From the NCBI GenBank assembly GCA_027082925.1, contig JALWTD010000018.1, positions 124,001 through 188,000 of the forward strand: a DNA stretch of 64,000 nucleotides, in the 5' to 3' direction. Made by a program: the position numbers and the translations under genes. How positions within the stretch are numbered: the stretch's first letter is position 1; each line of letters begins with the position of its first letter. This document shows, in pieces, positions 35,472 through 55,595 of the stretch. The notes beneath the pieces were generated by a model, which did not search any database, was not told the DNA's origin, and was given only the letters and a program-made list of their open reading frames with translations. The stretch comes from Flavobacteriaceae bacterium (lineage in GTDB: Bacteria > Bacteroidota > Bacteroidia > Flavobacteriales > Flavobacteriaceae).

Positions 35472-37073
35472 ATGAAAATATTATACCAATCAAGAAAGAA
35501 AATATTTTTTTTAAGTATGAAAAGTGTGAAGCAACACAGTCCATTGTCAAGATTAGTTATTAATAGTCTTGTTTTTCTTTTATTTTTCTCATTTAACTTA
35601 ACAGCCCAAGAAGGCGATGCAGCAAATGGAGAGAAGCTATTTAAATCTACTTGTGCAGCATGTCACAGGTTAGATAAAAAATTGGTAGGTCCTGCTTTAA
35701 AGGGAATTACAGAAAAAAGAGAACAAGATTGGTTAATTGCTTGGATTAAAGACAATCAAGGATTAATTAACTCGGGAGACAAGTTAGCGAAAGAAGTTTC
35801 AGAAAGTACACCTGCAGCGATGACAGCTAACCCTCAATTATCTGACCAAGATATTATTGATATTTTAGCGTACACTAAAGGAGAAAAAGCAGCCCCTAAA
35901 GCTGCAGCAGCTCAGGAAGTAGACCCTGGAGTTGGAAGAGGAAAGAAAGTTTTTAAAGCAAATTGTGCAGCTTGTCACAAGCTAAAAGGGAAACTCATTG
36001 GACCAGAGTTGTTCAAAATTGGAGACAAACGAGATCCAGATTGGTTAAAACTTTGGATTAAAGATAACAATGCTTTAGTAGCTTCTGGTGATAAGTTGGC
36101 GAAAGAAGTTTCAGAAAGTACACCAGCGGCAATGACACCGTTCCCTCAATTATCTGATCAAGATGTTGAAGATTTATTAAAGTACTTTGCAGTAGGTGAT
36201 GTAGCAAAAGCAACCACACCTGTAGCAACTTCTGATAATAAAGAAATGTTTAACAAACCAGGTTTAGGTGTTTGGACAACATTAGGATATACTATTTTAG
36301 CATTTATTTTACTTTCTTTAATTGTTGCAGCAACAACAAATAAGCGAGATTCTGAAGATACAGGTGATAGCATGTTAAAAACATTGTTTTTCAATCCTTT
36401 CTTACGTTTCTTATTGTTGATTTTTGTGTTATTAGGAGGTGCTTGGTTAACCTTTGGTTGGCTTATGCAAATAGATGTGAATGTTGGGTATCAACCAATT
36501 CAGCCAATTAAATTTTCTCACGCAGTGCATGCAGGAGATAATAAAATAGACTGTCAATATTGTCACTCTTCAGCTAAAAACAGTAAAACCTCAGGAGTTC
36601 CTTCTGCAAATGTGTGTATGAATTGTCATAAAACAATATCAGAATACAACGGACCTCTATTTGGTGGTAATACAAAAGAAGATTTGGATAAAGAAATTCA
36701 AAAAATATACGATGCTGTAGGTTGGGATAAAGAAAACTTGAAATATATAGAAGGTTATAAACAAAAACCGGTAAAATGGATTCGTATTCATAATTTGGCA
36801 GATTTCGTGAACTATAATCACTCTCAGCACGTAACAGTAGCTGGTGTAGCATGTCAAAAATGTCACGGTCCTGTTGAAACAATGCACGATATGAAACAAT
36901 TTTCTCCACTTACAATGGGTTGGTGTATTGACTGTCACAGGAATACAAAAGTTGATTTGACAGCGAATGGATATTACAAAAACATTCACGATCAGCTAGC
37001 TAAAAAATATGGAGTAAAAGAAGTGACTGAGGCTCAAATGGGAGGTTTAGAGTGTGGTAAATGTCACTATTAA
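35472..37073 (+). CDS. actA: Alternative complex III subunit ActA, multihaem cytochrome c with two extra N-terminal cytochrome domains, 533 aa
   Basis: The electron-carrying cytochrome of the quinol:cytochrome c oxidoreductase (ACIII). Seven CxxCH sites are present: Cys61, Cys165, then a C-terminal cluster at 361, 382, 461, 485 and 528. The last five correspond to the pentahaem ActA core. The first two lie in duplicated ~84-residue monohaem domains (53-136 and 157-240) that share KLAKEVSESTPAAMT. Two membrane helices (about 268-288 and 308-331) separate the halves. Residues 25-45 are a signal anchor; an alternative ATG at 35517 (residue 16) gives a more usual signal peptide. First gene of actABCDEF. 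Confidence 0.9.
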   Translation: MKILYQSRKKIFFLSMKSVKQHSPLSRLVINSLVFLLFFSFNLTAQEGDAANGEKLFKSTCAACHRLDKKLVGPALKGITEKREQDWLIAWIKDNQGLINSGDKLAKEVSESTPAAMTANPQLSDQDIIDILAYTKGEKAAPKAAAAQEVDPGVGRGKKVFKANCAACHKLKGKLIGPELFKIGDKRDPDWLKLWIKDNNALVASGDKLAKEVSESTPAAMTPFPQLSDQDVEDLLKYFAVGDVAKATTPVATSDNKEMFNKPGLGVWTTLGYTILAFILLSLIVAATTNKRDSEDTGDSMLKTLFFNPFLRFLLLIFVLLGGAWLTFGWLMQIDVNVGYQPIQPIKFSHAVHAGDNKIDCQYCHSSAKNSKTSGVPSANVCMNCHKTISEYNGPLFGGNTKEDLDKEIQKIYDAVGWDKENLKYIEGYKQKPVKWIRIHNLADFVNYNHSQHVTVAGVACQKCHGPVETMHDMKQFSPLTMGWCIDCHRNTKVDLTANGYYKNIHDQLAKKYGVKEVTEAQMGGLECGKCHY

Positions 37074-46972: not shown

Positions 46973-47995
46973 ATGAATGAACACTTAAATCCTGATAAAA
47001 ACAATCTTTCATCTGAAGAATTTGACGTTGAAAAGAAGCTTCGGCCAATTACATTCGATGACTTTACCGGTCAGGAACAAGTTTTAGAAAACTTAAAAGT
47101 GTTTGTTGAAGCTGCAAATTTGCGTAATGAAGCTTTAGACCACACACTTTTTCACGGTCCTCCGGGATTAGGGAAAACAACCTTAGCACACATTCTTTCT
47201 AATGAATTAAATGTAGGGCTGAAAATTACTTCAGGACCGGTTTTAGATAAACCGGGTGATTTGGCAGGGCTTCTAACAAATTTGAGTGAAAGAGATGTTT
47301 TATTTATTGATGAGATACACAGACTTAGCCCTATTGTTGAAGAATATCTGTATTCGGCAATGGAAGACTATCGTATAGATATTATGATAGAATCTGGCCC
47401 AAATGCACGTACAGTACAAATAGATTTAGAACCATTTACCCTTATTGGAGCAACAACCAGATCCGGATTGCTAACATCTCCCATGAGAGCTAGATTTGGA
47501 ATTAGTAGCAGACTTCAATATTACAACTCTAAACTGTTAACCACCATTATACAACGCAGTGCCGATATATTAAAAGTGCCTATATCTATGGAGGCTGCCA
47601 TTGAAATAGCCGGTAGAAGTAGAGGCACACCTCGAATAGCAAATGCATTGTTGAGAAGAGTTCGTGATTTTGCTCAAATTAAAGGAGATGGAGCTATTAA
47701 TATTAAAATTGCTAAATACGCTTTAAATGCCTTAAATGTAGATGCACATGGCTTAGATGAAATGGACAATAAAATTTTATCAACCATTATCGATAAATTT
47801 AAAGGAGGTCCTGTAGGGATAACTACCATTGCAACCGCTGTAGGTGAAAGTAGTGAAACCATTGAAGAAGTATATGAACCTTTTTTGATACAAGAAGGCT
47901 TTATTATGAGAACTCCTAGAGGAAGAGAAGTGACAGAATTAGCCTATCAGCATTTAGGTAAAACAAAAGGCAATTCACAAAGAGAACTGTTTTAG
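46973..47995 (+). CDS. ruvB: Holliday junction helicase RuvB, 340 aa
   Basis: The AAA+ motor of RuvABC branch migration. The N-terminus has [15 protein letters not shown]. Walker A is [15 protein letters not shown] near residue 60, Walker B is [11 protein letters not shown] near 108, and sensor 1 lies in [15 protein letters not shown] near 154. The sensor 2 arginine is in [16 protein letters not shown] near 220. The C-terminal winged helix ends [17 protein letters not shown]. Length is standard. It stands alone between the oxidase terminator and the sulfur locus. Confidence 0.98.
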
Positions 47996-47996
47996 A

Positions 47997-48012
47997 AGTG
48001 ATATACATCACA
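47997..48012. promoter_or_regulatory. Crp/Fnr-like operator upstream of the sulP pair
   Basis: AGTGA-N6-TCACA with perfect inner arms GTGAT-ATAC-ATCAC (47998-48011). Its centre (48004.5) is 28.5 bp before the -7 box, equivalent to about -40 from the start site, a class II activator position. It begins two bases after the ruvB stop. Confidence 0.6.
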
Positions 48013-48032
48013 AAATAAACAATATATCACAT

Positions 48033-48040
48033 TACTTTTG
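48033..48040 (+). promoter_or_regulatory. sulP promoter -7 element
   Basis: TACTTTTG, 27 bp before the ATG. No TTG at -33, consistent with need for an activator. Confidence 0.5.
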
Positions 48041-48067
48041 TAGTAAAATACATTATAAACTTGCAAA

Positions 48068-49804
48068 ATGAGTTTAAAACAACTATTTCCTTTTTTAGAA
48101 TGGTTACCCTTAGCAAAAAAGTACTGGAAAGATGATTTAATTGCTGGTATAACAGGAACAATAATAGTCATTCCTCAAGCAGTTGCATTTGCTATGATTG
48201 CCGGACTACCGCCAATTTATGGATTTTATACTGCAATGGTTACACCAATAATTGCGGCTTTATTCGGTTCTTCATATCATTTAATTTCAGGACCAACAAC
48301 CACCAGTTCTATTGTGGTATATGCAATAATTAGCAAGTTTGTAAGTCCAGAATCGGATTTAGAAGCCTTTATTTCATTAGCAATTGTACTGTCCTTTATG
48401 GCTGGGGTTATTAAGTTGTTAATGGGAGTTGCCAAAATGGGAAAACTTGTGAATTTTGTCTCACATTCTGTTGTTATTGGCTTTTCTGCCGGGGCAGGAA
48501 TACTTATTGCTTTTAAACAATTAAAATATGTTTTTGGAATAAAAGTTCCTATGGGAAGTACATTTTATGAAATTATTATTTACATAGCCTCGCATATAAA
48601 AGAAACAAATCTATATGTTTTTGGTGTTGCTGCAGGAACTTTAATAATAGCACTTTTAATTAGAAAGTTTGTTAAAAAATTAGCGAGACTTTATATGTTA
48701 ATAGCAATGATACTAGGAAGTGTTCTAGCTTTACTAATGGGTGGAATAGCAAATGGTATTGAAACCGTAGGAACAATACCATCACATTTACCTCCTTTTA
48801 AAGTTCCCGATTTTTCTTACGAAAGTATGAAAATGCTGACATCTGGAGCCATCACATTGGCATTGTTAGGATTGGTAGAAGCCGTTTCTATTGCAAGAGC
48901 AGTAGCGCTGCACTCACACCAGAAGCTAGATAATAATAGAGAATTTATAGGACAAGGTTTATCAAATATTATCTCAAGTTTTTTCTCATCTTATGCAAGT
49001 TCGGGCTCATTTACCCGTTCAGGAGTCAATTATCAGGCCGGAGCAAAAACGCCAATGTCTGCAATAATTTCAGCAGTAGGGTTAATGCTTGTAGTTTTAT
49101 TTTTCGCAAAGTATGCTTCATTTTTACCAAAGCCTGCAATGGGAGGAATTATTTTACTTGTTGGATATAATTTAATAGACTTTCATCATATAAAACAAAT
49201 AATAAGAAGCAGTAAAAGAGAATTTATAGTATTAAGTGTTACCTTATTAGGGACTCTTTTTTTAGAATTGGAAACAGCATTGTTTTCAGGAATATTAATT
49301 TCGTTGTTTTTCTACTTAGAAAAAACATCAAAACCAAATATTGCTGTATTTGGTAAAAATGAAAACAATAAGTTTATTAATATTATTAGAGATGATACTT
49401 CTGAAGAATGCTTGCAAATTAAAATAATTAGAATAGATGGTTCTATTTACTTTGGAGCGGTAGAATCTGTTTCTAAATTCTTTTCAGAACTATATGAAAA
49501 AAATGAAAAAAAGTACCTGTTAGTGATTGCCGATGGAATTAACTTTATCGATTTGGCCGGAGCAGAGTGGCTTACTCATGAAGTAGAAAAATGGCAAAAA
49601 AGAGGTGGCGGAATTTATTTTGTAGGTTTAAAACTAGTAAGTCAAGATATTTTAAAACGAGGAGGCTTTATAAATAGAATTGGATATAATAATTTTTTTA
49701 AAGATAAAAACGACGCAATTTCAACAATTTACAAAAAGCTAGACAAAAATATTTGCTTAAATTGTATGGCAAAAGTATTTACTGAATGCAATAATGAAGT
49801 ATAA
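48068..49804 (+). CDS. SulP-family anion transporter with STAS domain, 578 aa (first copy)
   Basis: A SLC26/SulP inner-membrane carrier of sulfate, bicarbonate or related anions. The transport core (~20-420) has IVIPQAVAFAMIAGLPPIYG, the paired beta-strand region around SGPTTTSSIVVYAI, and SSGSFTRSGVNYQAGAKTP. A cytoplasmic STAS domain (~440-550) follows. Unusually, the extreme C-terminus is cysteine-rich (ICLNCMAKVFTECNNEV). It is two bases upstream of a second SulP gene and opens the sulfur-oxidation locus. Export of sulfite or sulfate, or uptake of a sulfur anion, is inferred only from that context. Confidence 0.88.
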   Translation: MSLKQLFPFLEWLPLAKKYWKDDLIAGITGTIIVIPQAVAFAMIAGLPPIYGFYTAMVTPIIAALFGSSYHLISGPTTTSSIVVYAIISKFVSPESDLEAFISLAIVLSFMAGVIKLLMGVAKMGKLVNFVSHSVVIGFSAGAGILIAFKQLKYVFGIKVPMGSTFYEIIIYIASHIKETNLYVFGVAAGTLIIALLIRKFVKKLARLYMLIAMILGSVLALLMGGIANGIETVGTIPSHLPPFKVPDFSYESMKMLTSGAITLALLGLVEAVSIARAVALHSHQKLDNNREFIGQGLSNIISSFFSSYASSGSFTRSGVNYQAGAKTPMSAIISAVGLMLVVLFFAKYASFLPKPAMGGIILLVGYNLIDFHHIKQIIRSSKREFIVLSVTLLGTLFLELETALFSGILISLFFYLEKTSKPNIAVFGKNENNKFINIIRDDTSEECLQIKIIRIDGSIYFGAVESVSKFFSELYEKNEKKYLLVIADGINFIDLAGAEWLTHEVEKWQKRGGGIYFVGLKLVSQDILKRGGFINRIGYNNFFKDKNDAISTIYKKLDKNICLNCMAKVFTECNNEV

Positions 49805-49806
49805 TT

Positions 49807-51540
49807 ATGAGTATAAAAAAAATACTACCAATACTTGATTGGCTACCTAATTACCAAAAAGACTGGTTTAAAAGTGATTTTGGTGCAGGTTTAACAATTG
49901 GTATTATGCTAATACCTCAAGGTATAGCCTATGCTATGATTGCCGGCTTACCACCTATATACGGATTGTACACAGCTATGATTCCTCAAGTTATATATGC
50001 ATTATTTGGAACTTCTCGTCAGTTAGCCGTAGGACCTGTTGCAATGGATTCGCTTATAGTAGCTTCAGGAGTCGCTACATTGGCTAAAATAGGAACAGAA
50101 CACTTTATAGAATTTGCTATTTTATTGGCTTTTATGATGGGAGTGTTGCAAGTGCTTTTTGGTGTTTTTAAATTGGGGTTTTTAGTAAACTTTTTATCAA
50201 GACCGGTTATAAGCGGATTTACTTCTGCGGCATCGTTAATTATAGGGTTAAATCAGTTAAAACATTTATTAGGGATTAATATTAATAGAAATAACAAGCT
50301 ACAAGGACTCCTCTTAGAAGCTTTTCAGCATTTAAAAGAAATACATTGGGTAACATTTTTAATAGGTGTATTATCCATTCTCATATTGTTGTTTTTTAAA
50401 CGCTTAACAAAAAAAATCCCGGCAGCTTTGGTAGTAGTAGTTCTGGGAATTTTAGCCGTTAAAATATTTCATTTAGAACAATCTGGAGTTAAAATTGTAG
50501 GAAGCATACCTGAAGGATTGCCTATTTTTAAAATGCCAGCTTTTAGTAAGCAAGTTATGATTGATTTGTTCCCTATAGCGCTTACGCTCTCATTTATAGC
50601 TTTCTTAGAAGCAATATCTGTATCTAAGGCTATTGAAGCTAAACATAGCGATTACAAAGTTGTACCTAATCAAGAGCTAATAGCTTTAGGTATGGGAAAT
50701 ATTATAGGTTCCTTTTTTCAAACATACCCAGCAACGGGAGGTTTGTCTAGAACAGCGGTTAACAATCAAGCCGGAGCAAAAACACCTTTGGCAGCAATTA
50801 TATCTGCTTCAGTTATAGCACTTACCTTATTGTTTTTAACACCGGTATTTTATTATTTACCCAAGGCTGTTTTGGCAGCAATTATTATGGTTGCAGTTTT
50901 TGGTTTATTAGATTTTAGTGTACCAAAACAACTCTTAAAGTATTCTAGAAGAGATTTAATAATTTTAAATATAACATTATTGATTACTGCAACAGTGGGT
51001 ATTAAAGAAGGTGTTTTAGTTGGAGTTGTACTATCATTGGCTATGCTTATTTACAAAAGCACAAAACCTCATATTGCTATTCTAGGACGAGTTCCGGGGA
51101 CTCATTTTTATAGAAATATAAAAAGATTTGATGATATTGAAATTGATGACGAAATTCTTATTGTACGATTTGATGCACAACTACATTTTGCAAACACAAC
51201 CTACTTTAAAGATAAGTTACAAGAATTTGCTAGTGAAAAAGGTAAAAAACTAAAAATGTTGATTATTGATGGAGAAAGCCTAAACAATTTGGATAGTAGT
51301 GCTATATATACAATAAACGAAGTGTTAGACTACTTTAAAAACATGAATGTAAAGGTTGTGTTTACAGGATTAAAAGGACCTGTAAGAGATACCATTAATA
51401 AATCAGGACTAATTCATAAAATTGGTTTTGATCAATGTTTTATGAGTATTCAAGAAGCCGTAGATTGTTTTAAATCTACTTGCGAAAGCGAATCTGACGT
51501 AAAGAAATATCAAGAATATTTAAAGCAAAGCAACAAGTAA
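49807..51540 (+). CDS. SulP-family anion transporter with STAS domain, 577 aa (second copy)
   Basis: A paralogue of the preceding carrier with the same plan: transport core with IMLIPQGIAYAMIAGLPPIYG, GPVAMDSLIVASGVA, YPATGGLSRTAVNNQAGAKTP, and a STAS domain (~440-550; IIDGESLNNLDSSAIYT). The two differ at many positions in the core, so this is an old duplication and may mean different substrates. It lacks the CxxC tail of copy one but ends in a charged region with two Cys (CFKSTCESESDV). It is translationally adjacent to copy one. The following CstB-like gene has its own promoter. Confidence 0.88.
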   Translation: MSIKKILPILDWLPNYQKDWFKSDFGAGLTIGIMLIPQGIAYAMIAGLPPIYGLYTAMIPQVIYALFGTSRQLAVGPVAMDSLIVASGVATLAKIGTEHFIEFAILLAFMMGVLQVLFGVFKLGFLVNFLSRPVISGFTSAASLIIGLNQLKHLLGININRNNKLQGLLLEAFQHLKEIHWVTFLIGVLSILILLFFKRLTKKIPAALVVVVLGILAVKIFHLEQSGVKIVGSIPEGLPIFKMPAFSKQVMIDLFPIALTLSFIAFLEAISVSKAIEAKHSDYKVVPNQELIALGMGNIIGSFFQTYPATGGLSRTAVNNQAGAKTPLAAIISASVIALTLLFLTPVFYYLPKAVLAAIIMVAVFGLLDFSVPKQLLKYSRRDLIILNITLLITATVGIKEGVLVGVVLSLAMLIYKSTKPHIAILGRVPGTHFYRNIKRFDDIEIDDEILIVRFDAQLHFANTTYFKDKLQEFASEKGKKLKMLIIDGESLNNLDSSAIYTINEVLDYFKNMNVKVVFTGLKGPVRDTINKSGLIHKIGFDQCFMSIQEAVDCFKSTCESESDVKKYQEYLKQSNK

Positions 51541-51564
51541 TTCTTACAAGGTATTTTTAAGTTA

Positions 51565-51580
51565 TGTAATCTAAGTTACA
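51565..51580. promoter_or_regulatory. Crp/Fnr-like operator upstream of the CstB-like gene
   Basis: TGTAA-TCTAAG-TTACA, a perfect 5-bp inverted repeat with the TGTNA-N6-TNACA geometry of Crp/Fnr-family sites. Its centre (51572.5) is 29.5 bp before the -7 box at 51602. Confidence 0.55.
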
Positions 51581-51601
51581 AAAAATACATGATGATTCTT
51601 G

Positions 51602-51609
51602 TAGCTTTG
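51602..51609 (+). promoter_or_regulatory. CstB-like gene promoter -7 element
   Basis: TAGCTTTG, 42 bp before the ATG at 51652. No -33 TTG is present. Confidence 0.5.
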
Positions 51610-51651
51610 GAACGCTACGAACTTTTTTAACAAAATATAAATCAAACAATT

Positions 51652-53070
51652 ATGAGAGTAGAACAATTATTTACAGGCTGTCTTGCGGAAATGGCTTACT
51701 ATATAGAGTCCAATGGAGAAGCTGCAATTATTGACCCTTTAAGAGAAACAGAACCTTATATAGAAATGGCAAAAGTTGATGGTGCCAAAATTAAATATAT
51801 CTTTTTAACACATTTTCATGCAGATTTTGTTTCAGGACAAGTAGATTTGGCGAAAAAAACAGGAGCTACTATTGTTTTTGGACCAAACGCTGAAGCTGCA
51901 TATGAAATTTACAATGGTAAAGATGGTGAAGAATTTAAGCTAGGAGGAGGAAAAATAACCCTTTTACATACACCGGGACACACGATGGAATCTTCATCGT
52001 ATTTAATAACAGATGAAGAAGGAAATACACCATACGTTTGTACAGGTGATTGCCTATTTATAGGAGATGTTGGTCGTCCAGATTTAGCCGTTAAATCAGG
52101 AACTATTACCCAAGAAGATTTAGCCGGATTTTTATTCGAGTCATTACGAACAAAAATAATGCCTTTACCAGATGATATTATTGTATATCCAAATCATGGT
52201 GCAGGTTCTGCCTGTGGAAAAAATATGAGTTCCGAAACATTTGATACTTTAGGAAATCAGAAGAAAACAAATTATGCACTACGTGCAGATATGACCAAAG
52301 AAGAATTTATAAAAGAAGTAACTACCGGTCTAAAACAACCACCACAATACTTCCCTAACAATGTTAGAATGAACAAGGGAATAAACACAAGTATTGATGA
52401 AATTTTACACAAAGGAACAACTCCAATTGATGCGGCAAGCTTTAAAGAAATGAGCGAACAAAAAGACATTCTTGTTATAGATACTCGATCAAAAGAAGCA
52501 TATGCCGAAGAAGGAACAATTCCTGGAGCTTGGTATATTGGGGTAGATGGAAGTTTTGCTCCTTGGGTTGGTGCATTAGTGACCAACATTAATCAAAAAA
52601 TTATTTTTATTGCCGAAGGAGGAAGAGAAGCTGAGGTTGTTACCCGATTTTCTCGTGTAGGATACGACAATACTTTAGGATATTTAAGAGGAGGAATTAA
52701 AGCGTGGATTGCAGCTGGTTTTGAAATTGATACCATTGGTTCTATTTCGGCCGTTGAGTTTGCAAAACGACTAAAAGAAGGTTCTATGGAAGCTCCTTTA
52801 GATGTTAGAAAAGAATCGGAATATTTATCAGAACACGTTGTTGGCGTTGAAAATTTTCCATTAGATTTTATAAATTCAAATTTTGCAGAAATAGACACAA
52901 GCAAAGAATACTTTTTACATTGTGCAAGTGGTTATAGATCACTTATCGCAGCCTCTATTTTTAGAGCAAACGGGGTGAAAAAAGTTACAGATGTTAGAGG
53001 TGGATTTAAAGATATTAAAGATACCGATGCTGAAATTACCGATTACGTTTGTCCAACAACATTATTGTAA
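51652..53070 (+). CDS. CstB-like persulfide dioxygenase/sulfurtransferase (MBL + two rhodanese domains), 472 aa
   Basis: Probably oxidises low-molecular-weight persulfide to sulfite and moves sulfane sulfur. Residues 1-~235 form an MBL-fold dioxygenase domain like ETHE1/CstB. Metal-site residues are in THFHADF (His54, His56, Asp58), HTPGH (His110), TGDCLFIGDVGRPDL (Asp133, Asp139) and YPNHGAG (His182). A first rhodanese domain (~255-357) has AEGGREA where the catalytic Cys loop should be, so it is inactive. The second (~365-460) has an intact HCASGYRS loop with Cys424. MBL, pseudo-rhodanese, rhodanese is the order described for Staphylococcus CstB. It has its own promoter and terminator. Confidence 0.87.
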   Translation: MRVEQLFTGCLAEMAYYIESNGEAAIIDPLRETEPYIEMAKVDGAKIKYIFLTHFHADFVSGQVDLAKKTGATIVFGPNAEAAYEIYNGKDGEEFKLGGGKITLLHTPGHTMESSSYLITDEEGNTPYVCTGDCLFIGDVGRPDLAVKSGTITQEDLAGFLFESLRTKIMPLPDDIIVYPNHGAGSACGKNMSSETFDTLGNQKKTNYALRADMTKEEFIKEVTTGLKQPPQYFPNNVRMNKGINTSIDEILHKGTTPIDAASFKEMSEQKDILVIDTRSKEAYAEEGTIPGAWYIGVDGSFAPWVGALVTNINQKIIFIAEGGREAEVVTRFSRVGYDNTLGYLRGGIKAWIAAGFEIDTIGSISAVEFAKRLKEGSMEAPLDVRKESEYLSEHVVGVENFPLDFINSNFAEIDTSKEYFLHCASGYRSLIAASIFRANGVKKVTDVRGGFKDIKDTDAEITDYVCPTTLL

Positions 53071-53091
53071 TTTAGTAATAACAAAATATAG

Positions 53092-53120
53092 AAAAGGAGG
53101 CCGTTAAGTCTCCTTTTTTA
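53092..53120 (+). terminator. Terminator after the CstB-like gene
   Basis: AAAAGGAG (53092-53099) pairs with CTCCTTTT (53110-53117) around a 10-nt loop, followed by TT. Confidence 0.75.
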
Positions 53121-53179
53121 GCGTTTAAATTTTGTATAAGCAAAAATTAAATTTAACTTTACTCAAGAAAATATTTTAT

Positions 53180-53611
53180 ATGAAAACTTTTTTAAAAATA
53201 GCATTAGTATTTATGGCTCTTACTATTACAAGTTGTAATAATAAGAAGCAAACCGTAGCAAGTAAAACTTCAGAAACAACCGTTAATCAGGAGGAGGGGA
53301 AAATAACACTTATTACTCCTGAAGAACTAAAAAAACAAGCAGAAAATCAACTTTTAGTTGATGTGCGAACTCCTGAAGAATACGATGAAGGCCACATTGA
53401 AAATGCAAAAAATATAAATTATTTTGACGACGACTTTATAGAGCAAATGTCTAAATTTGATAAGTCAAAACCTATAATTGTCTATTGTAGATCAGGAAGA
53501 AGATCTTCTTCTGCAGCAGAAAAACTTTTAAAAAGTGGATTTAAGCAAATTTATGATTTAAAAGGAGGAATTATTAACTGGACAAATCAAAACAACAAAA
53601 CTGTAAAGTAA
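53180..53611 (+). CDS. Rhodanese-like lipoprotein, 143 aa
   Basis: A single-domain sulfurtransferase anchored in the envelope. I choose the ATG at 53180, which gives a clean lipoprotein signal (MKTFLKIALVFMALTITSC, Cys19), over an in-frame TTG at 53132. The rhodanese domain (~42-137) contains LLVDVRTPEEYDEGHIENA and an intact active-site loop YCRSGRRSSSA. WTNQ closes the domain. It is 1 bp upstream of the DUF3365 cytochrome, so the pair is translationally coupled, suggesting they act together on extracytoplasmic sulfane sulfur. Confidence 0.87.
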   Translation: MKTFLKIALVFMALTITSCNNKKQTVASKTSETTVNQEEGKITLITPEELKKQAENQLLVDVRTPEEYDEGHIENAKNINYFDDDFIEQMSKFDKSKPIIVYCRSGRRSSSAAEKLLKSGFKQIYDLKGGIINWTNQNNKTVK

Positions 53612-53612
53612 A

Positions 53613-54176
53613 ATGTTTAAAAAAGTTGCATTTTTAATTACATTAGTTTCTTTAATTTCTTGTACAAACTCATTATCTAAGCAAGAAAAAAAAGACTACC
53701 TTCAGAAAGGTAAAGAAATAGCAAAAGCTTCATTTAAAGAACTAAGTAACCACTTAATGAGTCAAATGCAAATGGGTGGGCCTGCACAAGCAGTACCTTT
53801 TTGTAATGTTCAAGCTATTCCTGTTACAGAAAGCTTATCAAACAAATACAATGTTACCATTAAAAGAACTTCCGATAAGGTAAGAAACCCTAAAAATACA
53901 CCTACAAAGAGAGAACAAGAGGTAATATCAACCTATAAAGCGTTAAAGGCTAAAGGAGAAAAATTGACGCCAATAGTTGAAATAGATGCCGCAAATAAAA
54001 AGCACTTTTATGCACCTATTATTGTAAATAAAAAGTGTTTGAGTTGTCACGGAACAAAAGGTGAAGAATTAAGTGTTAAAACAGATTCTTTAATTAAAAC
54101 AATGTATCCAAAAGATTTGGCTGTAGACTATAAAATAGGCGATGTTAGAGGAGCTTGGAGTATAACATTTAATTAA
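53613..54176 (+). CDS. DUF3365 (Tll0287-like) c-type haem lipoprotein, 187 aa
   Basis: A lipoprotein signal ends at LVSLISC (Cys17). The domain (~30-187) has FCNVQAIPVTESLSNKYN, RTSDKVRNPKNTPTKRE and one c-type haem motif CLSCHGTKG near residue 149. It ends DVRGAWSITFN. Tll0287-type domains bind haem with Cys/His coordination and are thought to sense redox state or diatomic gas, or to carry electrons. Pairing with a rhodanese lipoprotein and SQR suggests a link to sulfur redox chemistry at the envelope; that role is inferred. Confidence 0.85.
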   Translation: MFKKVAFLITLVSLISCTNSLSKQEKKDYLQKGKEIAKASFKELSNHLMSQMQMGGPAQAVPFCNVQAIPVTESLSNKYNVTIKRTSDKVRNPKNTPTKREQEVISTYKALKAKGEKLTPIVEIDAANKKHFYAPIIVNKKCLSCHGTKGEELSVKTDSLIKTMYPKDLAVDYKIGDVRGAWSITFN

Positions 54177-54194
54177 AAGATTTATAAAAATATA

Positions 54195-54240
54195 AAAAAC
54201 GATTAATTGTGATAAACATCACAATTAATCGTTTTTTTTT
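54195..54240. promoter_or_regulatory. Terminator hairpin containing a perfect Crp/Fnr-type operator
   Basis: CGATTAATTGTGAT (54200-54213), loop AAAC, ATCACAATTAATCG (54218-54231), extended by A5/T5 and followed by more T. As RNA it is a terminator for the DUF3365 gene. As DNA its core TGTGA-TAAACA-TCACA (54208-54223) is the ideal Crp-family palindrome. Its centre (54215.5) is 28.5 bp before the -7-like box of sqr. Confidence 0.7.
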
Positions 54241-54243
54241 ATA

Positions 54244-54251
54244 TAATTTTC
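54244..54251 (+). promoter_or_regulatory. sqr promoter -7-like element
   Basis: TAATTTTC, one base off TAnnTTTG, 33 bp before the ATG at 54285. No -33 TTG. Its spacing from the upstream palindrome equals that at sulP. Confidence 0.45.
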
Positions 54252-54284
54252 TAAATTAAAATTACTAATTAAAAAAATAATACA

Positions 54285-55595
54285 ATGTCAAAACACTTTC
54301 AAGTTCTTGTAATTGGAGGCGGAACAGCCGGAATCATGGTTGCCTCAATGCTAAAACGAAAAGACAAATCATTACAAATTGGGCTGATTGAACCTTCTGA
54401 AACACACTATTATCAACCTGCATGGACTTTAGTAGGTGCTAATACGTACGATTTTAAAAACACAGCCAGACCAATGGCGTCACTTATTCCAAAAGGAGTA
54501 GAGTGGATTAAAGAGTTCGCCGATAAATTTGAGCCGGAAAATAATAAGGTAACTACCAAAGATGGTACAACATTTACATATGATTATATGGTTGTTGCAG
54601 CCGGATTAAGAATGGCTACAGAGTTGGTAGAAGGCTTACAAGAAGCAATGGATAAAGGTGTTGTATGTAGTAATTACACAAACCCAACACATACTTGGGA
54701 AACTCTCAAAAACTTTAAAGGAGGAACAGCGTTGTTTACGCAACCGGCAACGCCAATTAAATGTGCGGGAGCCCCTCAAAAAATTATGTATTTAGCCGAA
54801 GATCACTTCAAAAAAAGTGGGGTTAAAAGTAAAACCGACATTGTTTTTGCTTTGCCTAGCGGAGTTATATTTGGAGTTAAAGTAATAGCTAATACACTTA
54901 TGGAGGTTATTGATAGAAAAGATATTAACGTTCGTTTTTTCCATAAGCTGGTAAAGGTAGATGCCGATAAAAAGATAGCTTGGTATGAAATTGTAAAAGA
55001 TTTATCTGCCGGAGGTTGTGTAACAATGACAGATGGAGATGAAAAATCACTGGATAAAGAAATTCAATACAACTACAAAGATGTTAAGGTTACAAAAGAT
55101 GGAGATAGATACGGTATTCATTTTGATATGATGCATTTAGCTCCACCTCAAACAGCACCTCTTTTTATTAAAAATTCGCCATTAGTATCAAAAGATGGTT
55201 GGGTAGATGTTGATAGTAAAACAATGCAACATAACAAATACAAAAATATATTTAGTCTTGGAGATGTGGCTCAAATACCTACTTCAAAAACAGGAGCTGC
55301 TATTAGAAAGCAAGCGCCAATTGTTGTAGAAAATGTGCTAAAAATGATTGAATCAAACTCAATTAGCGCTAAAGAATATTCAGGATATACATCTTGTCCT
55401 TTAGTAACGGGATATGGAAAAATGGTATTGGCTGAGTTTGATTATGATAAGAATTTTAAACCAGACCCCAAATTAAAACAATTCCCATTAATGATTAGTG
55501 ATTCATCTAAAGAACATTGGAGGTTATGGATTTTAAAGAAATACATACTACCTTATTTGTACTGGAATAAAATGATGAAAGGAATTGAGGTTTAA
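54285..55595 (+). CDS. sqr: Sulfide:quinone oxidoreductase (type II/SQOR-like), 436 aa
   Basis: A membrane-associated flavoprotein that oxidises sulfide to a persulfide/polysulfide and reduces menaquinone. The FAD-binding motif VIGGGTAGIMVA is at the N-terminus and HYYQPAWTLVG at ~41 is diagnostic of SQR. The two redox cysteines are Cys160 (PIKCAGAPQK) and Cys371 (GYTSCPLVTGYGK). IFSLGDVAQIPTSKTGAA is the second FAD site. An amphipathic Trp/Tyr-rich C-terminus (WRLWILKKYILPYLYW) would bind the membrane. The two-Cys pattern and sequence style fit the type II, mitochondrial-like group. The gene ends the sulfur locus. Confidence 0.93.
   Translation: MSKHFQVLVIGGGTAGIMVASMLKRKDKSLQIGLIEPSETHYYQPAWTLVGANTYDFKNTARPMASLIPKGVEWIKEFADKFEPENNKVTTKDGTTFTYDYMVVAAGLRMATELVEGLQEAMDKGVVCSNYTNPTHTWETLKNFKGGTALFTQPATPIKCAGAPQKIMYLAEDHFKKSGVKSKTDIVFALPSGVIFGVKVIANTLMEVIDRKDINVRFFHKLVKVDADKKIAWYEIVKDLSAGGCVTMTDGDEKSLDKEIQYNYKDVKVTKDGDRYGIHFDMMHLAPPQTAPLFIKNSPLVSKDGWVDVDSKTMQHNKYKNIFSLGDVAQIPTSKTGAAIRKQAPIVVENVLKMIESNSISAKEYSGYTSCPLVTGYGKMVLAEFDYDKNFKPDPKLKQFPLMISDSSKEHWRLWILKKYILPYLYWNKMMKGIEV

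Follow-up and report, generated by a model that had tools for sequence, protein, structure and literature searches.

Predicted Crp/Fnr-type operators at fixed spacing in sulfur-gene promoters of a Flavobacteriaceae bacterium, one of them nested in a putative terminator hairpin

The window analyzed here, a 64,000-nucleotide stretch of a Flavobacteriaceae bacterium (assembly GCA_027082925.1, contig JALWTD010000018.1, positions 124,001 to 188,000 of the forward strand), contains two tandem SulP transporter genes, a CstB-like gene whose product is a putative persulfide dioxygenase, and a sulfide:quinone oxidoreductase-like gene (sqr), with a palindrome of the Crp/Fnr type in each of their three promoters (Table 1). 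A preliminary description of this DNA had proposed that these palindromes are a common operator at an activator position. Their sequences and coordinates were exact on re-reading, and the spacing, measured from the operator centre to the first base of the -7 box, was reproduced. The proposal itself was also supported, as the palindromes are conserved in relatives, the spacing is fixed across 38 genomes of the genus Lutibacter, and genes of a Crp/Fnr family lie near yedE in this genome and near cstB/sqr in other genera. Our data indicated that the three sites are probably class-II-type operators of one sulfide-oxidation regulon under an activating Crp/Fnr dimer.

Table 1. Operators, -7 boxes and genes of the predicted regulon in the window
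Feature	Position	Strand	Remarks
Predicted operator, sulP promoter	47997..48012	+	AGTGATATACATCACA; operator and box in 34/35 relatives
-7 box, sulP	48033..48040	+	TACTTTTG; 28.5 bp after operator centre
SulP transporter gene 1	48068..49804	+	NCBIfam sulP 372 bits, slightly below the cut-off of 380
SulP transporter gene 2	49807..51540	+	Starts 2 bases past SulP gene 1
Predicted operator, cstB-like promoter	51565..51580	+	TGTAATCTAAGTTACA; operator in 30/30 Lutibacter loci, own included
-7 box, cstB-like gene	51602..51609	+	TAGCTTTG; 29.5 bp after operator centre
CstB-like gene	51652..53070	+	Pfam: metallo-beta-lactamase fold and two rhodanese stretches
Tll0287-like gene	53613..54176	+	Family match; stop 39 nt ahead of sqr operator centre
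Predicted intrinsic terminator hairpin	54194..54237	+	Perfect 20-bp stem, 4-nt loop, then T-run
Predicted operator, sqr promoter	54208..54223	+	TGTGATAAACATCACA; apical part of hairpin
-7 box, sqr	54244..54251	+	TAATTTTC; one base off TAnnTTTG; 28.5 bp after operator centre
sqr, sulfide:quinone oxidoreductase-like	54285..55595	+	Best NCBIfam match is the type III SQR model, 242.6 bits, cut-off of 525 not reached

Close relatives retain the palindromes in their orthologous promoters, in 34 of 35 cases for sulP, 30 of 30 for cstB and 16 of 16 for sqr. Operator and box of sulP occurred together in 20/20 relatives and then in 14/15 further ones (none in G013; the G019 row is a SulP of only 35% identity), with some boxes ending in A. 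The cstB gene was matched in 32 of the 37 genus genomes and 30 loci were read; all had the operator, and TAnnTTTG stood at 28.5 or 29.5 bp in 27 of them (not in L026, L028 and L035). In several of these loci the operator lies about 180 rather than about 87 bases ahead of the ATG, with the operator-box spacing unchanged. Sixteen sequences were available for sqr, from 15 genus genomes and one further metagenome-assembled genome (L126); L005 and L018 each deviate from the consensus, and the L148 site, AGTGATTTAAATCACT, is identical with that of L018. Two promoters outside the window follow the same pattern: a SoeBC-like gene has the operator in 30/30 Lutibacter loci, each time at 28.5 bp, and yedE has operator and box in 22/34 rows, corresponding to 21/31 distinct genomes. 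Across four promoters with 111 sites in all, the only departure from GT.A......T.AC is one base in one sqr site.

The distance to the box is conserved along with the word. Across the 38 Lutibacter genomes, TGTNA-N6-TNACA-N20-TAnnTTTG gave 92 matches against 6 for the reversed control; 59 of the 92 belong by position to sulP, SoeBC-like, cstB or yedE promoters, and sulP sites account for five of the remaining 33. When the gap between TGTGAY-N4-RTYACA and the box was left free from 6 to 36 (31 gaps), 43 of the 60 matches fell at gap 20 and 14 at gap 21, with 3 matches in the control. Within the window, three operator-box pairs were observed where 0.023 were expected, and none of 300 Markov-1 sequences of window length held more than one (operator at least 9/10, TAnnTTT[GC] at 27.5-30.5 bp, C having been admitted to the box class after the sqr box was seen).

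Beyond the genus, the best 80 of 439 sqr loci were kept, 14 of them from Lutibacter. Among these 80, an operator scoring at least 8/10 was present in 71, including 57 of the 66 non-Lutibacter loci, where it mostly reads TGTAAC-N4-GTTACA, and a loosely defined box stood at 27.5-30.5 bp in 56 of the 71 operator-bearing loci. In other families of the order, the operator follows directly after a regulator gene in f11 (two loci) and f15, lies between cstB and yedE in f14, and precedes yedE in f13, with the box at 29.5 bp in f13, f14 and f15; in several other cstB loci of the order, the operator was not seen.

Class II promoters of E. coli CRP have a TGTGA-N6-TCACA palindrome centred near -41.5. The sites described here resemble them in carrying a two-fold TGTRA-N6-TYACA palindrome and in their position, and differ in serving sulfur-oxidation targets and in a -7 box of the Bacteroidota type. 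According to the available part of PMC9723704, the sigma-A box of Flavobacterium psychrophilum spans -12 to -5, so that operators centred 28.5 or 29.5 bp before the box would fall at -40.5 or -41.5; the preliminary description had given about -40. The absence of a -33 TTG, to which the preliminary description had also appealed, was confirmed for all three promoters; however, the 127 TAnnTTTG strings of the window show no excess of TTG at that distance upstream, which leaves this argument weak when taken alone. Our model proposes that a Crp/Fnr dimer would bind TGTRAY-N4-RTYACA around a midpoint of approximately -40.5 or -41.5 and activate sigma-A promoters that depend on the -7 box and have no -33 TTG.

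The regulator is encoded outside the window, as had been anticipated: four Crp-family genes (the FNR-like L001, L002, L003 and reg2) were found in the genome (G000; 2,469,820 bases) on contigs C14, C16 and C17, the window being part of C18. Judged from sequence, the likely regulators are the Crp/Fnr paralogs encoded beside yedE, foremost L003, or else L002 or reg2. Downstream of L003 (G000:C16:114380-115009) lie two YedE-type genes, reg2, molybdenum-cofactor genes and the SoeBC-like operon, and L003 orthologs (approximately 50-57% identity) occur within cstB/sqr/yedE clusters of other Flavobacteriaceae. The genes between the yedE/regulator genes and the SoeBC-like operon (G000:C16:100001-118000, L084) are moaA, moeA, mobA-like, moaE and thiF-type.

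L003 has both domains of the Crp/Fnr family above their cut-offs (PF00027, 36.0 bits; PF13545, 40.0 bits), and its predicted structure adopts a canonical CRP fold (mean predicted local distance difference test score, 90.0), with CRP and NtcA as top matches. Its recognition helix, SRVVVSR, is common to L002 and aligns with RV---R of NtcA, a cyanobacterial nitrogen regulator with approximately 22% identity to L003 in the structural match; NtcA sites have the form GTA-N8-TAC, similar to the sites here. The helix of reg2, SREAVSR, is CRP-like, and that of L001 reads ATESAIR. L003 and L002 have Val at position 181 and group together in the tree, whereas reg2 has Glu and forms a long branch. cAMP-CRP binds cAMP through E72 and R82; the profile opposite the CRP letters GELGLFEEGQERS does not contain them, L003 reading CASSFASALSSGKC there, and the cyclic-nucleotide pocket letters GEL and ERS of the aligned CRP row are missing from the profile. 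FNR holds its Fe-S cluster with a set of cysteines that L003, having only C77 and C90, does not share. C77 is invariant in the 27-row alignment, all 30 Lutibacter loci have C90 in addition, and 13/16 other orthologs of the L003 group have CC at 83-84. Our guess is that the signal is a reactive sulfur species whose targets are C77 and a second cysteine.

Several results weigh against one regulon under one Crp/Fnr dimer. The bare TGTNA-N6-TNACA is not enriched in the own genome (91 matches versus 105 in the reversed control), nor is TGTGA-N6-TCACA with up to one mismatch (44 versus 76), and the palindrome alone therefore has little weight, whereas motif plus spacing does carry weight. The objection that such a motif would be as common at random positions thus applies to the bare word and fails for the word with its box (92 versus 6), a count that, like the others across the genus, takes in orthologous promoters and is hence non-independent. 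The strict open-gap pattern has zero matches in the own genome, because the sulP, cstB and sqr sites each deviate from it. Away from known sulfur promoters lie 28 of the 92 fixed-gap matches, and 10 of the 31 genomes have yedE without operator and box. The sqr box, as TAnnTTT[CT] at 28.5 or 29.5 bp, is present in 11/15 Lutibacter promoters and missing in four, and the full TAnnTTTG occurs in 0/15. Finally, several candidate regulators remain, since there are four Crp-family genes and L002 and L003 have the same recognition helix.

This last point bears on a division of labor that we regard as unlikely although worth weighing, in which reg2, with its CRP-like helix, would act on GTGA-type sites (sqr, sulP and SoeBC-like) and L003/L002, with their NtcA-like helix, on GTAA-type sites (mainly cstB and part of yedE). 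Besides the differing helices, the distribution of half-sites is consistent with such a split, the left GTGA being found in 32/35 sulP, 16/16 sqr and 27/30 SoeBC-like sites and the right TTAC in 26/30 cstB sites. The three sulP sites with left GTAA also come from genomes without a reg2 match (G018, G036 and G019; L286, L119 and L284). However, G018 and G036 look closely related, G034 and G014 likewise have no reg2 match yet carry GTGA at sulP (both assemblies being fragmented), yedE sites are mixed, and regulators with an RE helix outside Lutibacter occur beside TGTAAC sites.

Activation by the dimer, rather than repression, is an inference from the position of the operator. The operator overlaps the expected -33 region, and a repressor covering that region and released by sulfide or sulfane sulfur would have precedents in CstR and SqrR/BigR, which repress sulfide genes (PMC9774590, in its available part). 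A repressor, however, would not require the centre to keep a distance of 28.5 or 29.5 bp to the box, as it does in most promoters and genomes, and promoters that have no -33 TTG speak against it as well, which makes this mode of control improbable. CstR, SqrR/BigR and FisR likewise control sulfide-oxidation genes, with cysteine pairs or triples as sensors, but the same part of that review places them in the CsoR, ArsR and Fis/sigma54 families, unlike the Crp/Fnr proteins considered here.

A redox, oxygen or nitric oxide regulator, either the FNR-like L001 or a protein of the HcpR type, would make the sulfur genes part of a respiratory regulon, and sites with a box do occur ahead of a cytochrome c gene and a di-haem peroxidase gene. 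The HcpR consensus motifs wTGTGAnnnnnnTCACAw and GTAACnnnnGTTAC in the available text of PMC1274295 fit both palindrome forms found here, and the HcpR1/HcpR2 described there are Crp/Fnr-family proteins present in Bacteroidota. An HcpR-like protein had accordingly been offered as an example of the missing factor. This identity was dropped, given that a search for Prismane/Hcp gave no match in the own genome while control genomes did give matches, and that L003 has Val and reg2 has Glu at position 181, where HcpR2 has Pro. The predicted targets here are sulfur-oxidation genes instead of hcp. L001 has a different helix, and the sulfur-gene neighborhood belongs to the L003-type regulator, so that we assign the respiratory scenario a low probability.

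The sqr operator has a second structural context that the preliminary description did not mention. Its palindrome forms the apex of a perfect hairpin with a T-run after it (Table 1); this structure combines the stable stem, T-run and position after a gene typical of intrinsic terminators and is a predicted intrinsic (Rho-independent) terminator of the upstream gene. For arm offsets 8-15 in the 16 Lutibacter sequences, pairing is 0.98 within genomes compared with 0.58 when arms are swapped between genomes. In the alignment of the element (A1), 97.7% of cells are paired, 11/16 pairs have changed on both sides, and double-changed cells number 55, whereas shuffles gave 11.8 and slid versions 8-9. 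The core pairs GTGA...TCAC stay constant apart from one G-U (three pairs in 16/16, the next in 15/16), and among the outer pairs that of columns 17 and 40 is likewise invariant. Collectively, these patterns argue that the same bases are under selection both for pairing and for a fixed DNA word. The upstream gene's stop codon lies 38-45 nt ahead of the operator centre in 15 of the 16 sequences, and the genes upstream of sqr are of at least four kinds by their C-terminal letters, only the Tll0287-like one having been matched to a family. In the window, a small rhodanese gene and this Tll0287-like gene stand between the cstB-like gene and sqr (53180-54176).

That the sqr palindrome is purely a terminator, unrelated to the other two sites, was an early reading suggested by the perfect 20-bp hairpin and T-run past the upstream gene and by the off-consensus sqr box; it was dropped once relatives showed conservation of the operator, and we now consider it highly improbable, as the arms vary with pairing kept while the GTGA...TCA pairs stay and 57 of the 66 sqr loci kept from outside Lutibacter have the operator at an equal distance. 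The element shares with ordinary intrinsic terminators the stem, the 4-nt loop and the T-run soon after a stop codon, and differs from them in that its apex is a fixed, predicted protein-binding word serving the next promoter. A single 44-bp element would thus terminate the upstream transcript and bear the activator site of the next.

Model R1 matched the own genome at this element only (E ≤ 0.01). With stricter filters at the same threshold, a search of 199 genomes of the family recovered the sqr site of the own genome, and 12 further genomes gave weak matches. Of the loci inspected, that in G178 (L305/L317) alone had a GTGA-N6-TCAC core, and it had no sqr within its 3 kb. R1 was unmatched in 30 non-Lutibacter sqr loci (E ≤ 0.1), and Rfam gave no match at gathering score across window positions 47500-54600. 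By eye, the sqr loci L134, L137 and L139 have a separate terminator immediately before the operator. In L141, approximately 100 bases ahead of sqr, CTGTGAC-AAAT-GTCACAG is followed by GTTTTTT, the operator itself reading as a short terminator stem; this non-Lutibacter locus may represent a second instance of nesting.

In the proposed regulon, the dimer (L003, or L002/reg2) would control three targets in the window (sulP-sulP, the CstB-like gene and sqr) and two outside it, namely yedE-yedE beside the regulator and the SoeBC-like molybdoenzyme operon. The putative function of the SoeBC-like enzyme is read from sequence, no NCBIfam model having matched above its cut-off. The targets would cover transport as well as a pathway from sulfide through zero-valent sulfur and sulfite to sulfate. 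Genes for the oxidation of sulfide and zero-valent sulfur are present and expressed in marine Bacteroidota, according to the available part of PMC12345210. Lutibacter strains have been described from the Black Sea (PMC11129491), and the same source states that for some sulfide-tolerant strains, which may or may not include Lutibacter, no oxidation of sulfide was observed in culture. Literature queries over titles and the beginnings of abstracts, several of them narrow and run in a collection that lacks most subscription journals, returned no Crp/Fnr sulfide regulon in Bacteroidota and no operator nested in a terminator. A Crp/Fnr regulon as such is known; the target set, the phylum and the nested arrangement appear to be new. 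Since the reactive-sulfur regulators in the accessible part of the review PMC9774590 belong to families other than Crp/Fnr, a Crp/Fnr regulon over SQR, CstB-like, SoeBC-like, SulP and YedE proteins would add a layer of control and a motif-plus-spacing rule for gene finding. The sqr element would offer a clean example from nature in which one palindrome answers to both RNA pairing and a fixed DNA word, constraints that covariation can separate. More speculatively, and with considerable doubt on our part, a Crp/Fnr protein whose former cyclic-nucleotide cassette holds a two-cysteine sensor (C77 with C90 in Lutibacter, C77 with CC at 83-84 in most other orthologs) might sense persulfide and induce the entire route from sulfide to sulfate in marine Bacteroidota, the dimer bound at sqr also tuning the terminator around it and thereby coupling upstream read-through to sqr activation.

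Other occurrences of the motif were also recorded. Two operator-like strings in the window, TGTGCAGCATGTCACA (35652-35667) and TGTGCAGCTTGTCACA (35964-35979), lie within a multi-haem cytochrome gene and are attributed to chance because they resemble haem-motif codons (CAACH). Elsewhere in the genome, TGTTATAAAAATCACA with TAAATTTG at 28.5 bp precedes a cytochrome c gene (G000:C17:45686-45701; L212:687-702), look-alikes with an equal gap occur in several other Lutibacter genomes, and the same regulator, or one related to it, may act on this gene. A further site, TGTAATTAATGTTACA with TAATTTTG at 28.5 bp, precedes the di-haem cytochrome c peroxidase gene (G000:C14:107270-107285; L214:971-986).

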